Positions 1,331 to 41,703 of a DNA stretch of 64,000 bases are shown one piece after another. Every line of letters starts with the position of its first letter. The stretch's first letter is position 1. Source of the stretch: Polytrichum commune (taxonomy: Eukaryota; Streptophyta; Polytrichopsida; Polytrichales; Polytrichaceae). The notes beneath the pieces were generated by a model. The model saw nothing but the letters and a program-made list of their open reading frames with translations, did not search any database and had not been told where the DNA came from. Location: the NCBI GenBank assembly GCA_950295325.1, contig OX485803.1:11718001-11782000 (forward strand). The letters are read 5' to 3'. The translations under genes and the position numbers were made by a program.

Positions 1331-4300
1331 GCAATGTTGTTGGACATGACTTTGATAGATCAACTCATACTATGTTGCCCAATTAAAAAATAAATCAACC
1401 GATCATCATAAGTGCACAATTAGGTGTCACAAGGAAGCAAGTTCCCAAGAATATGAACTTTGCATGCAACTAATTGAAAATGGTTACTAGTAGCCAAATG
1501 TTGGTTGTTGGAATCCTTTTGTAACAATTTGCTTTTAATTATTTTAATTTTTAAAAACATACCAATGAATTTTTCTAAATAATGTTTCCAATTCCTTTTG
1601 TAAGATGCTCCAGTTGGATGTCTTGCCACAATTTCTTTTTTTTTTGGGCAACCTTGCCCAATACACTTCCACGCCCTATATTTATGTGTCGAAGACTTAT
1701 AAAACATATGTCCATGTACTCTAAGATGAGCATGCTCATGTCAAGGTGCACATGAATACGCAACCCCCATAAAACACTCATAGGGTGGTGGTGGGCCCTT
1801 CATTCTTCATGTTCTAAAGTGCCATCTCGTAAGGGTCCACCCACACTAGGCCCTACTGAAGTTGATATGTAGTAGTTCCAATCAATGTTCCTTGGCAATA
1901 GGAGGAGTCCCTTTTGATAGAAAAATTCACCTCTTTTTGAATTTTACTACTACCAATAAGAATCTTCGTTCTACTCATAAGAACCTCACTAATATAGTGT
2001 ACTATAGTTTTGCCAATGCATGCAAGACAATATCTCCTATCATGATGGAAACTCTCCCACCGATGTGGGCTAGTCATTGGTAATAGTGTCGGGATGGTAT
2101 AAGAGAATTGGTTAATTTATGAATTGAGGAAGAATAGCTCACCAAATGCTTAGCTAACCACAATTATGGTCAAATCACTCGAACCAACTACTTAAGAAGA
2201 ACTAGCTAACTATATGAGTATTTTAGTGAGAACTAGCTAACCATTGTGCGAGTTGATTGATCTCACACCCCATGGTTACGATGAACCAAATGTTGACCAA
2301 CTCAAAAGATGAATTAATGTTGACCAGCCAAAATCTTAATCAACATGTCCAAAATTTGAACATGACACAATTACAAACATTATGATTTTTGTGGTTTACA
2401 CCATTTGTATTCCAGTACAATTAGTATGAAATTAAAGCCAAACATATATTTATTATTATAGCAAATTATATTATCATTATATCTATTTGTAACATTGGAA
2501 ATGAAATCATTCATATTATTTTTTGATTAAATATTGATATATGATTTAAACTACATGCTAATTTAGGATGCTTTCAGAATGGTGTGGTCTACCTCACAAT
2601 GGATAGGGAGAAGAGATGGACCAAATGAGAAACAACATTCAAGAAACCAACCAAGTTTGAGTATTGGTAATAAGTTAGTTAACATTAAGGGTAGGAATGA
2701 GGTTAGAGTTCTTCACAAAACAAGGTCCAAGAAGCAATCCAACTTCTAGTATGATAACTTTCATTTGAACCTAAATTTTCACTAGGTGGTGTGGACGTGA
2801 GATTGATTAGCTTCCCGTACACGTTAACTACCTCATATGGTGCTTAATTCTCTCAAGCAATGTGAATATGGCTTGGTGTTTAATAAAGAGATATATATGT
2901 GCTTGTATTAGAGGTGAATATACTTGTAGCATTGGTGGTGAACCCAAAGATACTCCATGTGGTGGATGCTTCGTTCTTGAAATCCTAGAATGTCGATTTG
3001 ATTGATAAAGGTAGAAAGCACATGAAACAACACGAGCTCCTAACTAGGGGATGATATTGTACATACATGGACGATGCCACGGGCCCACATCAATGTGTTT
3101 ACAATATCATGAGCCGAGCTCCTAAGAGCACAACCACCCATTATGTAGCAAACTCAATATGAATAAGCTTTAATATACAGTGGCCAACTTTAACTGAAAG
3201 CTCCAAATGTAGGCCCTAACCGCAACCGCCCATTCACAATTTGATTTCCGACGGGCAACTCAATTGCCCGAAACCAATTTTTTTTTTGTACTCTGCTCGA
3301 AATTTTTTTAGGTTGCATGCTACCAATAAATAAATAAAGAAAGAAAAATCATGCCCGCTTTGCGAAGAAAGCTGCAATTCCAACCTTACTTCTGCAAAAC
3401 AACGATCTTACAAACCAGCCTTCAATCCGGCCAAAACTCTACCTACATTCAACGGCACCCATCCAAAATTGAAAGGCACCCCCAACATTTTACAGCTAAT
3501 TGCAATCATAATGAAGCAATTAAACATAAAAAAAAGTACAAACAACTGAGAAATTGAAGTGAAAGTTGTGAGAGGTTGTCATTCTTATAAATATGAGCAA
3601 ATGTTGTTATTTTTTCATACGATTGCCTATCTAATGCTAGACTGATTGATATGTAACCCGAGATACTAGAAGAATACCACATAAACATCTCTAAACTACA
3701 TAATCAAACCACCCCAATTTTTTCAACGAATGTTTTTTCAACCCACATGTGCTAAGAACCAATTGCCTTACCCGAATCACGCCTCTTCTCACATTCTTCC
3801 TCCCCAATCATGATCACCCACTTCAATCGGATTTATCCGTGTATTGGGTGAGGTGTGTATGTATGAGCATGAAGAGTAAGAAATGATTGACCATGACGAA
3901 TAGGAGATTGACCACGAGGAGTAGGAGGTGAGTATGGAAGATGATTAGTCATGACATATGTCTCGAATGCAGCAGAGAGTACCAAATCATGTTCCATCGA
4001 TCTCTTCTTTTATTTTGCAAGTTCTTCATCTCGCCTCAAGGTGTAAAACTCACGTGTCATAGGATCCCTTATGGCATCAATGTCGATTTCAAAAAAATGT
4101 TATGCAATGGTGTCTTGCAAAATGTGGGCCTTCATGCGTGTTGCTCATGTCATCTCTAATGAAGCTTAAGCTTGTACACATGCCACACGACCGGCAGGAA
4201 GAACTAACATGGAGTTGCGATTGGCCGAAACGAACCCCTAATTACCACACAAGAGGACGTTTGAGGGGAGGCAACATGACGTGGCAAGGAATCTTTGTTA

Positions 4301-35319: not shown

Positions 35320-36486
35320 TTAACCCCTAAATGCCCGAGTCCCTCCATGGACGTTTTTTCTAATAAAATAGTGCATGTCTTTACTACAATCCCCAAGCCA
35401 TGAATTGATCTTTGATCCAAAATCTAACCGTATAGATGTGATTAGAACTTGTATATTAGTAAGTACACCAATTTTGAGTCCTTGATTGCATAATAGTTGT
35501 GAAATTCAATGTAGATAAATGTGTGTAATCTTTTTTTAGTATGCTGCCCCTCCTCACAATGTTGGCTAAAATTGGTCATAAGTATTTTTGGTAGTTAGAG
35601 GTGACACGAACAACCCATCATGTTGAAGAGAACAAAAATGTGAATCCAATGACCCTATGTGTGCATGTAGACCTACCCAAATCTAATTCGCACTCCTCCT
35701 TGCAATTGGTGAAACGCATTTGTTTTTTTTTAACACTTGACAATTTCATATGGAAAATTGCTTCACATCAATGGTCGTGATTAGTAATATTTGACGGTGA
35801 AAAGAACAGGATTTTTTTACTCTTTCCGGTGCAACAATTCTCAAAAGAAATGACATACGGGAACTCCGTGGATGTCAAAAATAAGTAAATTGGTCCAATT
35901 AGCAAAAACATTTGGGAAATAGTGAAGAACTACCACCGCCCATTCCCAACATCATGGGTGGGACCCCTCTCCGCCTACAAGGTACCTTGTCCAACCTACC
36001 TCCTATTGCCTACATCATGGGTGGTTCCCTTTTCCCGCTAACAAGGTACTTCCTCCAACCTACCACCTAGTCGTCACCTAATTGCCACCTACTTGCCACC
36101 TCAATTGAGCCTATCCACTAAATGAAGTACTTATCTATTCTAAAATTTAGCCCGCCGCTCCCAGTCCCGCCATACAAGGTGCTGCCCCAATAATCAACAT
36201 TAGTCAATAGGTCATAACTTCTACATAATCAACTATTTTAGCGTGCAACTTTTTTTGACCGGTAGCTACAATGTTTGTGCATGTTCTCAGTTGTACAATC
36301 CAACAAAAAGGAATCACAGCCCCCTAGAATGTCACTAAAATCACTTTCACCTCGTGGTTTTTACATATATTTTCAAACATGCCTAACTTTTACATATGAA
36401 CATTGTTTCTAATGGCATTTTAGCTGCCTTTTGCATATTGAGGGTACAAATGTTAAAAAAATAAAACTTATTGATGAGCATTACCT

Positions 36487-39400
36487 TCAATCGAAAATGG
36501 GCCGGTGCACCGCCGCCCAACATTCTCCAATATGCATATGATGCCCAAGGCAACAAGGACAATAAGTTTGGCACCGTATGCGGCATTCACAACAAACTTT
36601 GCGGTGTGGGCTCCACATGGGCATATGAAGAAGTCCGACATGCCGATTGTACCGAGAAGTGCACTTGCGGGACCGGAGGTGGTGTGAGGCCAAAACTTTG
36701 GCCAAGCGCAATTGAAAAGATTTGTGACTCAAAGGTCGGTTTCCTAGAGTCAAAGACTGTGCGCAATGTAGTTTCCACATGTTTACCACGGTAGTGTCCA
36801 AAAGAAAGAAAAAAAGCCTGTGCCACCACTTATGAGTCCGAACTTGAGAGGAATATTCTCCCCTTAGTTGGTCCGCCACATCTACCCCCCGCATATAGGT
36901 TGTGTATTGGTAATGCATAGGGGAGGTCTCAACATCCTTACGCACGGAACCCACCCGCCGTGAGACCACCGGACATTCCTCCCCTACCCCATGGATTGGT
37001 GGGGCCACGGTGGACATCACAAGGACAGGTTTTTTATCCACCCATACAATAGCACTAAGTTTTTTGGATGCATGCATCCTCCACTCTAAATGCCCTTGAG
37101 GGGACTTTGCATAAAGTGATTTTTTAGCGAGGGCGGTTGGAAGGCCAATACGGTCGGCCCTAACCGTGCCCGTCGCATAGGTGCCCTTCCCCAAAAGTTC
37201 CATAAACAAGGGCACTGAAGAAAAAAAGTTATCCATAACTACTATGTGGCCCCTATTCTCCAACCCCTCCAATAATGCGTGTACCACAATTGCCCCTTGC
37301 TTAGCCTCCCCTTTCTTAGACCCCTTGATTCCGGGAACCCCCTTATTGGCCCCACAATATACGTCGAAAGTCCATACGTACCTCGATGTAGAGTCCGTAA
37401 GACACCATACCTTGATTCCCCACTTAGTGGGCTTTTTAGGCATGTATTGACGGATGAGACAATACTTGCCCTTGTATTGTACCATCATCTCGTCTACGGT
37501 AACCTTATCCCCTAAATTCCACATGCCCTTACAACGATCCCTAATCTCATCCAATAGCCACCGTAATTTTACCAATTTGTCAAAGTCCCCGCTTGACCGA
37601 TCCGTAGTTGCGGCATGGTCATTATGCACATGTAAGCAACGAATAATGTGTTCATAGCGATTCCGGGTCATAATTGAGGATATAACCGGGCACCACAAAA
37701 AATCACAAGATTTTTCCCAATAAGACCTTACATTGGGCTCAATTTTTATCCCCATATATAAAGAAATTGCTAAAAAGGCCCTCAACTCCGATGGGTGTAA
37801 GGCAAACCACGTATCCCCACCCCGTAACTTTTTGGGAGTGCATTTAGAACGTGGGTTTATCTCCGATGCATACCTATTTGTCTCCGCACATATTTTACGT
37901 AATGTGTGAGGAGTCCAGAACTTATGGAACAAGGTATACAACGTGGGCATTTTATTAGAAGGGATTGGCAAGCCTGGTGTCGGACCCCTAAATTTAGCAG
38001 GTGCCGGATCAAATGTGGAGACTGTCTTTTGCCACGATGCATCACAGTAAATTTCTTTCAAGGTTGGTAATTTTATACGCCCCATCTTCTGTCTACCCAC
38101 AACTTCATTATCCAACAATTCACCCTTTTTTGCACATGCTGCCAACACCACAAAAGCATAAACTTTGATAAGCATATGGTTTCAGTCTCTACTGTGAACA
38201 AGTCATTTATTTAGAAAAGAGAAAATAACAAAAAAATGCCCTCTCACATGCAATGATCGGGGAGAACCGGCTGGTATTTACATATGAACTGGTTGAGTTC
38301 TAGAAATAACCGGTTGAAGTTCTATTTAGCAGAAAAATAACTATCATCTTGGAGGAAATTTATAGAATGTACCCCAATTTAATAAAGGAAAACCGGAGGA
38401 TGTGATCATGTAACAGGTTGGACTTGCAAACACAAGGATTTGAACCGGTTATCCCCAAAAATCTTCCGGATGACTTCTCAGTGGCTAAATAAACAGAAAA
38501 AAATAGAAAAAAACCAAAGCTTACCAGCAGCCGTTGCCTGCGCTCCTCGCTGGTTCGCGCCAGGGCGCCTGCTCTGCTGGCCACGCGCTGTGCTGCCGAG
38601 CGGCACTGCGCTCCGACACTTTGAAATCTCCTCCCAAGCGCCTAAATGTGGGAACACCTGCTCTTCTTCGCCCATCCGCCTCGCAACCCCAGCATTGTTG
38701 ACAGGAGCAGGTAAGTTTCTGTCTCGCTCCTCTCTACCTGCTTTTGTTTTCTGCAATTCAATACATCTGCCAATGTAACTGATAGCTTCTTCGAGTTGGT
38801 GCAATAAAAGAAATTTGAGAATGGGTCGGTGTTTGATTCATGTGAGACTGGGTCGGTGTTTAATTTCATGTGAGACTGGGTCAGTGTTTGATTCATGTGA
38901 GACTTCGCGATTTCAATTCTTCCTGCAAGTTGCTGTCAATCACTATGTCTGTTCTCAGAGTGGCATCTATGTATGTTCAATTCATGCGGTCTTTTCTCTA
39001 AAATTGCTATCTGTTTCGGAACAGAGACAGATCGCGATTAGAGATTAGGTCTCCGAAGTGCTCCGCGACAATTAGCTACCTAGCCTGACAGCAACCTCAT
39101 GAACTGGCTCTCAAGATCAGTAACTTAACTCCAGTCTCGGAAAAGGACTGCAGGTTGTGTGTGTGGACTGCCACAGACTCGCGTCCCCGTGATGGCATTC
39201 GCAGTGCAATGATCTATAATTTAATGCGAGGCAGGTTATGGGGATGTTGTTATTCAGTTTGTGTTTCGTGTTCATCCAACTTCTACTGATCAGGTTTAGA
39301 CAACGGAACTTTGTGTTGCATTAGCAGATCTACGATTGAAGACTAACAAAAATTGGATTGAAAACCGACAAAAAATGGGTTGAAAATTCGGACATGAATC

Positions 39401-40993
39401 TTTGATTGGTTGTGATTATCGAAGGTGCATGTTTGTTGATTGTAACATCACATCAGGGATCCACTTCTTATAGATTTCATTGTGGCTGAGTTTTCAGGTG
39501 TGCAGGTGTGCTGAGTTTGCAGGTGTGCACTTGAACTCGTATCTTATGTCTGTTCTCAGAGTGGCATCTATGCATCATATAGTGTATTACTGTATTGTTG
39601 GATACAAGTGCCTCAATCTTCTCTGTTTTCATAGACGGATCAGAGGTCTAGGCAATTTTTTGCGACTGATAAAGAAAGATTCAAATCGACCACTATGATA
39701 GACTTATAAATATTTTAATGAAAAATGTCACTGCTGACCTGCTGCGCTGTTTTTGCAGGTGCCACTGCCCGCACCCTCACTGGTGATCGGACATCCTCGA
39801 CACCAGCTGTAGATGCAATTCCTCCTTGACAATCTGCCTTCGTGTTGGCCGCTCCAAGGGATTGTGCCCAAGCTTCCCATTCGGCTGCTTCGTCATGAAG
39901 GTCATTTTCATATGTTACCGGCCAACTGTCATCTCCATCCCTACTGCCATCGTCATCTTCCGACTCGTCATCACTGGAAATGTTACATGTTGGCTCAACA
40001 TTGTTTGTGGGTTGTATTGCATTTTTTTCATGCCTTAGTATTTGCTCCGTGAATCCACTTGGAATACATTTTCTATTTCCATCAGCAAATAAAACATCAT
40101 ACATTCTAGTATTTGATTGCTCTTCAATGTAGCTCCTTTGCACCACGCCTAATATCCACTCTAAATCTTGTTCTTCCTCTCCCAATTGTACTGACTCACT
40201 CACAACATACCTTGGAACTCTCACTGCTACTTCATGGTCTTGTACTACAAGCTCTGTAAATCTAAAGTCTTTCAAACCACTTTGGGAGTACACGTCCCGT
40301 TGTCCCTTTGGACTTGGTTGCAAATCCACTACTTCCGTTGCCTTCCTCTTCAGGTCTTGATCGTTTCTTGGTGCAGATGCCTTGTCCGCCGTCATGATGC
40401 TCCCCTTCTTCGCAACAATCCTCAATCTTTCCCCCGTTCGCTTCCTTCCCTCTGACCATCCTTTTGTGTATGTGACTTGTGTGGTCGTTGCTATCTTTGA
40501 TGTGCACCTCCTTACTGCTAACTTGGGCGCCTTCCGACTTAGATTTACCTCCCTTGGCAATTGCAGATCGCTCCATTGAAGCCCCAATGTGTGGGCTCCT
40601 CTTCTCTCCAATGCCTTGAGAATTATCTGTTGCCATGTCTCTTTGTTCCTCTCCATGGTCTGGCCACACCTCTTTCCTCAAGGTGTCTCTCACGGCCTCC
40701 GAAAATCCATGCACATGTCTCTCCTTCCACCCTAAAATGTGAGCTACTTGTTGATAGTACCTAGATCTAAACGCTCTATTCTTTGGTATAGTGCCGATCT
40801 CTCGCCACTTCTTTGGCTTGGGCAACTTTGCAAGATAGTTTGAATCCAATGCTGCTAGAATAACTCTCTCTTGTTGTACACTTGCACCTTGCAACCTTAC
40901 CCAATTTCGAACTATGTCTACTGGTCCTCCGATGTAGCAAAGAGAGATAGGAGGGTTTGGAATGTCGTCCATTGTGACAAATGTGTATGACAA
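36487..40993 (-). CDS. piggyBac transposase (DDE_Tnp_1_7), multi-exon
   Basis: The last exon (38138 down to 36487) encodes the transposase core: catalytic aspartates in VTVDEMMVQYKGK, VVMDNFFSS and RGVDVADQLRGEY, matching insect piggyBac D268, D346 and D447, plus a C-terminal Cys-rich zinc-binding tail (CCECRIRCQTYCPCC) used for end binding. Upstream pieces fit by splice sites and phase: exon 38750-38525 (phase 0 in, 1 out) and an exon ending at 39739 (CAG|GTCAGC, phase 0). That exon carries a short YDVLFADGNRKCIPSGF Tudor-like strand set and an acidic stretch. The N-terminus from ATG 40993 (or 40972) lies in a different frame, overlapping over 40262-40656. A small intron or a frameshift there is unresolved. 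It would excise and insert DNA at TTAA in the nucleus. Confidence 0.85.
38260..38470. repeat. ACCGGTT-rich repeat in a transposase intron
   Basis: Shares TGAACTGGTTGAGTTC, GAAGTTCT, GAGGAAATTTATAGAATGT and GGTTGGACTTGCAAACACAAGGATTTGAACCGG-like words with the right arm of the foldback element at 44.2-45.7 kb. It is probably a diverged relative of that element inserted between the last two piggyBac exons. Confidence 0.55.
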
Positions 40994-41631
40994 TGAAGAC
41001 CTGTGAATTGGAATTTGAATGGTTCAAACATATATACACGCTTTTTGCATTCAACCCATCACTAACCGTTATCTTGCATAATGTTGGTGTTCTTTATGAA
41101 ATTCCTTACTGATTTGTTAGTTGAACCACTTTGCAACGTTGTGTAGGTATAAATTTTTCCATTTTTTCTCATTTCAATCCGTTGTGAGCACCGCCATTTT
41201 CATGTCTTCATGTTGTGAAAGCAATAGAGGCGGTTGAAAGTGATGAGGTTCCCGCCACACCTTGCCACAGTGGCTACAGTGCACTTTTTTTTTCATTTAG
41301 GAGGTTGCAAGCATGGAGTGATCTCATTAGTTACAAATTCATGATTTACTGCGCCAAACGAAGCGCCATTTTCTCCAATCAAGGGCCCATTACTTTCCAC
41401 TTTACCAAGAGCCAAACCCATTGCCCCCACAATTTTTTTTTTACTTGACCGCTCAATGGATGGGAAATTCTCATTGGTTCTCCAATGCTGCCCTTTTCTA
41501 CTAGTAGGACATATATGCCTTTGCGACCCTCTCTAAAATCAAATATTTAATCTTTTTGGTCAAAAATGCCTCAATCCAAAAGTTGCCCTTTCATACTGCT
41601 CGCCAAAAAAAATTTCGCGGTCAAAGGAATT

Positions 41632-41695
41632 TAACTGCCCACACACAAACGAGCCAAAATTTTTGGTCGACCATATATGGTCGCTCGGGCAGTTA
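41632..41695. repeat. nested palindromes at the piggyBac right end
   Basis: AACTGCCC at 41633 pairs with GGGCAGTT at 41687. Between them lie CCAAAATTTTTGG and CGACCATATATGGTCG, each nearly self-complementary. The outer GGGCAGTT is also part of the terminal repeat. Subterminal palindromes are common binding sites for the transposase's Cys-rich tail, so this is a likely recognition site. Confidence 0.7.
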
Positions 41696-41703
41696 GGGGT
41701 TAA

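Follow-up and report, generated by a model that had tools for sequence, protein, structure and literature searches.

The moss Polytrichum commune carries in its nuclear genome a complete DNA transposon of the piggyBac superfamily, and we conclude with high confidence that it belongs to a family that has moved very recently. The element lies in a stretch of 64,000 nucleotides of contig OX485803.1 (positions 11,718,001 to 11,782,000 of the forward strand), referred to here as the window; its features are listed in Table 1 in window coordinates. The initial annotation of this stretch had described a complete, possibly active piggyBac element in a plant genome, and this identification was borne out by the ends, the flanking TTAA and an open reading frame (ORF) for a DDE_Tnp_1_7 transposase. 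The photosystem I genes psaA and psaB, neighbours on contig C8 of this genome, indicate a moss host: they score highest against the PDB entries 6l35, 8htu and 7ksq of Physcomitrium patens photosystem I (up to 1704 and 1702 bits), ahead of 9lut (1678 and 1665 bits) and of the best flowering-plant entry, 7wfd (1633 and 1628 bits), and a flowering plant was rejected as host on these scores.

Table 1. Positions of the piggyBac element and its parts in the window
Feature	Position	Strand	Size	Remarks
TTAA target site, left	35320-35323	none		read in sequence
Complete element	35324-41699		6376 bp	ends, flanking TTAA and transposase ORF
Left terminal inverted repeat, CCCCTAAATGCCCGAG	35324-35339	+		3' end of the transposase strand; A-type
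Transposase core ORF	36487-38175	-	562 aa	DDD motifs, Cys-rich C-terminus; probably the last exon
Mosaic breakpoint (approximate)	38235-38245	none		left 99% identical to L009-L012, right like L014-L016
ORF2, 5' part	39715-40677	-	320 aa, stop to stop	earliest ATG at 40656; a presumed intron lies between it and the core
ORF1	40262-40972	-	236 aa from its own ATG	overlaps ORF2, with ORF2 in the +1 frame
'WPD' domain of ORF1 (N-terminal, conserved; name coined here)	40658-40972	-		predicted mostly helical, low confidence
Right terminal inverted repeat, CCCCTAACTGCCCGAG (minus-strand reading)	41684-41699	-		5' end of the transposase strand
TTAA target site, right	41700-41703	none		read in sequence

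Ends and target sites

The element has short terminal inverted repeats that start with CCC, as is typical of piggyBac. The left 16-bp end and the reverse complement of the right end are identical at 15 of 16 positions, and TTAA is found at both borders, in agreement with the initial annotation on both points. Genome-wide, the 17 bases that open the flanked end (TTAACCCCTAANTGCCC) were found 212 times, and a control in which the pattern was read backwards 0 times; the end pattern is therefore not due to chance. The TTAA target duplication that is also characteristic of piggyBac was present on both sides of eight of the nine long copies read and of all 13 short copies, the sole exception being the long copy L015, which has TCAA at its left. 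Two further repeats were seen at this locus. Inside the left part of the element there is a direct repeat (window 35932-36069), made up of two copies of approximately 75 bases that are 79% alike and seen as cross-matches in other copies. About 50 bases to the right of the element, a very abundant repeat extends from approximately 41750 to at least 41903 (it accounts for 31 of the 46 matches listed, at ≥95%).

Transposase core

The core ORF contains no internal stops and matches the Pfam family DDE_Tnp_1_7 (E-value: 3.7e-79) over positions 3-349 of the 349 in the profile. Its three catalytic Asp motifs (TVDE, MDNFF and RGVDVADQ) were also found in the other lineages aligned (four lineages); in the degenerate copy L025 the second motif reads DKKF, with the Asp retained. 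The three Asp residues also align with two PDB proteins, and these are the two PDB sequences matched at an E-value ≤0.01: piggyBat (9c0f; E-value: 8.1e-24) and Trichoplusia ni piggyBac (6x67/6x68; E-value: 3e-22). As the Cys/His pattern of the Cys-rich C-terminus is conserved in the alignment, this region is predicted to form a zinc-binding domain. The ratio dN/dS of the core is 0.23-0.37 in three comparisons among lineage A copies, each with few changes. The ORF, the Pfam match and the alignment uphold the earlier description of a stop-free minus-strand transposase with three catalytic Asp motifs and a Cys-rich tail. From what is known of the family, this protein would be expected to mediate excision of the element and insertion at TTAA.

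Long copies and recent mobility

A genome of 407.8 Mb in 64 contigs, seven of them large (six of 42-78 Mb, among them C1 with 77.9 Mb, and one of at least 50 Mb), was searched with the transposase. At least 83 matching stretches were found (77 of 318 candidates were scored), all of them on contigs C1 to C7. The 562-aa core is intact and free of stops at five places including the window copy, with 98-100% identity, while at a sixth place (L013) the DNA is 99.3% identical and the core frame is broken. Other pieces of the same family show 63-85% amino acid identity, many of them with stops. The genome-wide search for further copies that the initial annotation had proposed recovered many ends and several near-identical long copies.

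Some of these copies are very similar: the alignment of L010 with L011 has 3 differences in 6060 bases, and that of L009 with L012 has 8 in 5971. The silent rate of mosses is near 9e-9 per site and year, which would place the near-identical pairs, as a rough estimate, at a few tens of thousands of years. When flanks of 1300 bases were compared among six copies, four similarities were detected (72 to 237 bases at 78-93%), all of them inverted, and no insertion site was shared. As these similarities are short and inverted, the insertion sites of the near-identical copies differ; the pattern is as scattered repeats would give. Segmental duplication was considered as the source of the near-identical pairs and rejected, because no flank similarity in the same orientation was found within 1300 bases. 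L010 and L011 both lie next to fragments of shared repeats (72 bases, 93% alike, and 237 bases, 89% alike), mutually inverted. A search for empty sites of five nearly identical long copies was swamped by a repeat; among the best 40 of 9312 candidates it yielded only one place, a paralogue that is 81% identical to the L010 site and has GTAA instead of TTAA.

The copies and their sites support very recent mobility of the family, with the activity of the window copy itself putative. The presence of multiple near-identical copies, complete with ends and TTAA, at separate sites also bears on whether the window sequence could be a domesticated piggyBac-derived host gene and not a transposon. In all coding comparisons made dN/dS is below 1, as such a gene would show, but domesticated PGBD-type genes exist as single or few copies without terminal repeats, and the window family has neither property. 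A single domesticated gene, the alternative that the initial annotation had set against its own proposal, is excluded by the copies and the ends, and we give this explanation almost no weight.

Short non-autonomous copies

All 13 of the short copies that were read are 824-827 bp in length (the ~826-bp copies) and differ pairwise by 0.24-3.6% (median 2.4%). Their left end, of a related type, occurs 82 times in the genome, 72 times exactly and 0 times in the control, a count that includes some long relatives. To look for empty sites, the flanks of the 13 short copies were joined with one TTAA and compared with the genome (best 40 of 5354 candidates). All 40 places listed match the full 220 bp at 99-100% with a single TTAA, and all belong to two of the 13 sites, L033 (19 places) and L035 (21 places). 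Both of these insertions sit in abundant repeats, other copies of which carry the empty TTAA site; the empty sites are thus other copies of a repeat and not sites of excision. The recently mobile plant lineage that had been proposed is therefore backed by near-identical copies at different TTAA sites, by young short copies and by empty sites for two of the 13 short copies. Judging from the family, the transposase of the long copies may also move the ~826-bp copies in trans.

Mosaic copies

The window copy and L013 are assembled from two parts. On the transposase side (approximately 2.9 kb) both are 99% identical to L009-L012. On the other side they are only about 82% identical to those copies and instead resemble L014 and L015 (96-97% over the last 2.3 kb) and L016 (96% over the last 1.1 kb). 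The switch falls just upstream of the core ORF. From these identities, the window copy and L013 are recombinants, mosaics of two subfamilies. L013 is the only other copy of this mosaic type that was seen, and it differs from the window copy by 42 mismatches. The divergence between L009 and L010 is likewise uneven, reaching 3.5% in the 5' part against 0.8% in the transposase part. Because of this unevenness and the mosaic structure of the window copy and L013, exchange between copies seems to be frequent; gap repair after excision could be the source of the mosaics. In the old copies L014, L015 and L016, ORF1 is open and the transposase core has stops, as if the parts were decaying separately or the 5' side had been renewed by exchange.

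Other piggyBac lineages and the origin of the family

Beyond lineage A, to which the older relatives L014-L016 are counted, at least three further piggyBac lineages are present in the genome; they show approximately 33-57% amino acid identity to A or to each other. They are represented by L019-L021 (lineage B), L022-L023 (lineage C) and L024-L025 (lineage D). Inverted ends that start with CCC beside TTAA were found at 2/2 loci of C, 1/2 of D and 2/3 of B; in L025, a member of D, the best pair of ends is AT-rich and does not start with CCC. Controls with direct instead of inverted ends, or with AATT, ATAT or TATA as anchors, gave 0 at all seven loci. In lineage B, two of three loci have ends separated by 9-11 kb; at the third only one end was seen.

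Places resembling lineage B number eight (three of which were read), with stop-free open frames of at least 930 aa. Between lineage B frames dS is 0.78-1.01 and dN/dS 0.11-0.12, compared with a dN/dS of 0.21 in lineage C. These values led us to consider B as a domesticated gene family, a candidate explanation that is weakened by inverted, TTAA-flanked ends at two of three loci. As a separate observation, this second lineage comprises L019-L021 and L039-L044 (C7:20.36M, C2:16.92M, C7:5.64M), with frames of 930-950 aa that are open at a dS near 1.

The initial annotation had offered recent horizontal entry as one explanation for a piggyBac element in a plant, and this was not borne out. Such a transfer, with an animal, fungus or oomycete as donor and the moss as recipient, would fit the very low divergence among some copies and a piggyBac literature that is mostly on animals among the papers surveyed (PMC10140906 included). 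Against it, the same genome holds degraded older relatives (63-85% amino acid identity), the three or more further lineages and an N-terminal domain, that of ORF1, common to them. In addition, the other lineages score up to 375 bits against the window protein, while the two animal proteins from the PDB score 87 and 82 bits (the two sets of scores being from different programs). We consider recent horizontal transfer very improbable. Because of the degraded relatives, the further lineages and the common domain, the evidence points to a long residence of the family in this moss lineage, alongside three or more other lineages of piggyBac.

ORF1 and ORF2

Coding sequence reaches further upstream of the core than the initial annotation had reported, in the form of ORF1 and ORF2. 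The conserved domain of ORF1 (105 residues) gave 48 matches in the genome at an E-value ≤1, of which 33 are at ≤1e-3. A transposase match on the same strand lies within 12 kb downstream of 38/48 of these (29/33 of the stronger matches and 9/15 of the others), compared with 0/48 in a reversed control. Four matches at ≤1e-3 have no transposase match within 12 kb (C2:50154320, C6:37911907, C6:43982788 and C7:6737050); these may represent host genes, remnants or elements that were not scored.

The domain occurs in four lineages, has 13 invariant columns in an alignment of seven sequences and shows a dN/dS of 0.30 between the window copy and L010. A profile of the domain had no matches in the PDB at an E-value ≤10, and none of its seven members matched a Pfam family at an E-value ≤1, Myb-like families included. 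A single-sequence AlphaFold model has six helices and a mean pLDDT of 60.5, which is too weak for a fold search. When relatives were sought in viral contigs, three pattern matches were obtained and none was confirmed. For the extended ORF1 and ORF2 frames in the window, all Pfam matches were below the cut-off, and for ORF2 of L009 and L010 there was none at an E-value ≤0.5. For ORF2, dN/dS is 0.44 between the window copy and L010 (codons 71-268).

In 8/8 sequences from four lineages, ORF1 begins at an ATG and ends at a stop of its own, with 121 to 278 aa counted from the first ATG; in lineage D the stop comes only 15 codons past the domain. In eight sequences the end of ORF1 is overlapped by an open +1 frame whose first ATG lies no more than 22 bases from where the domain ends. 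This overlapping frame is ORF2 in lineages A, C and D. In C and D, ORF2 and the transposase form one uninterrupted frame. For A, we presume a short intron before the core: the gap between ORF2 and the core is approximately 80 bases in L009 and L010 and longer in the window copy (1982 to 3519 on the sense strand). In B, the +1 frame is only 71-89 aa in length and is followed in L020 and L021 by a donor-like AG|GTNNGT, and a long intron is presumed before the frame of 931-947 aa. The layout of ORF1 and ORF2 would thus be kept directly in three lineages and, with the presumed intron, in the fourth.

This layout, in which ORF1 overlaps a frame on the transposase side, suggests a two-protein piggyBac. 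We give somewhat less than even odds to the reading that the moss piggyBac elements are two-protein transposons, in which a small ORF1 protein with a previously unrecognised helical domain, and in A and C a basic tail resembling a nuclear signal, is an ancient and required accessory of a plant branch. A reading that we also take seriously, while holding it to be short of probable, is that there is a single long transposase, with ORF1 as its initial coding exon and the connection to ORF2 made through an intron or a +1 ribosomal frameshift. In A, C and D the open +1 frame starts where the domain ends and continues as ORF2, which would fit a single protein, as would the short frame of B, where the adjoining donor-like sequence makes an intron likely. 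Between the window copy and L010, changes tend to fall at third positions of ORF1 up to approximately sense base 1100 and at third positions of ORF2 from approximately 1400 (small counts), and in the overlap of A neither frame is well constrained (dN/dS of 0.67 in both). A single transposase is, however, harder to reconcile with an ATG and a stop of its own in every ORF1, including the early stop in D, and with the behaviour of the overlap when codons are permuted.

For this last comparison we relied on permutation of synonymous codons within the overlap (5000 per sequence), which is stricter than drawing on the codon pool of the whole of ORF2; an earlier resampling from that pool had given 0 to 2 of 2000. 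With ORF2 held, between 19 and 134 of the 5000 permutations left ORF1 open across the overlap (5/5 sequences). With ORF1 held, ORF2 was open in 675 to 2706 of 5000, which is unremarkable. The five sequences, which represent two lineages, are not independent. Because ORF1 is so rarely open in the permutations, its tail is probably coding sequence, and the stretch of ORF2 within the overlap is putative coding sequence only.

If the elements encode two proteins, ORF1 and the transposase would be made from the overlapping frames, as the anatomy suggests. As in the known family, the transposase would bind the ends, cut at TTAA and insert at a new TTAA, moving both long and short copies, and the ORF1 protein could help to bind the ends or to reach the nucleus. 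Its most likely role, which we infer, is that of an accessory DNA-binding or nuclear-targeting protein.

Comparison with known piggyBac elements

Most known piggyBac elements that are complete and recently mobile come from animals. The moss element shares with T. ni piggyBac a DDD transposase, matched at the sequence level, together with TTAA sites, ends starting with CCC and a Cys-rich C-terminus. The T. ni element is approximately 2.5 kb in length with one ORF, whereas the moss element has a longer coding region, an ORF1 with a domain unmatched in Pfam and the PDB, presumed introns and a plant host. PiggyBat of the bat Myotis, which is recently mobile, is the best PDB sequence match (over residues 95-470), but its host is an animal and we know of no counterpart of ORF1 in it. 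In the way it may work, the moss element can be compared with PIF/Harbinger, which encodes an accessory DNA-binding protein and a transposase of an unrelated family and uses a 3-bp target site. Two element-encoded proteins are likewise suggested for the moss element; its ORF1 domain matches no Pfam family, Myb-like included.

Reports of piggyBac cover fungi, plants and animals (PMC10140906); 1230 piggyBac fragments have been annotated in a fern (PMC6890710), and one group of the MITEs of flowering plants is of piggyBac type (PMC10004981). Those MITEs resemble the short moss copies as small non-autonomous elements assigned to piggyBac, but the moss genome also holds long relatives with an open transposase ORF. 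In term searches, the word piggyBac did not appear in a review of land-plant transposons (PMC9033089) or in the main text of the Ptychostomum moss genome paper (PMC11704416), and our searches of open-licence papers turned up no autonomous moss piggyBac.

Several lineages and a burst of young short copies in a land plant would make piggyBac a long-standing part of the plant genome, and mosses would have a native cut-and-paste system directed to TTAA. The conserved additional ORF, a feature new here for whose domain neither Pfam nor the PDB gave a match, raises a question that can be tested.
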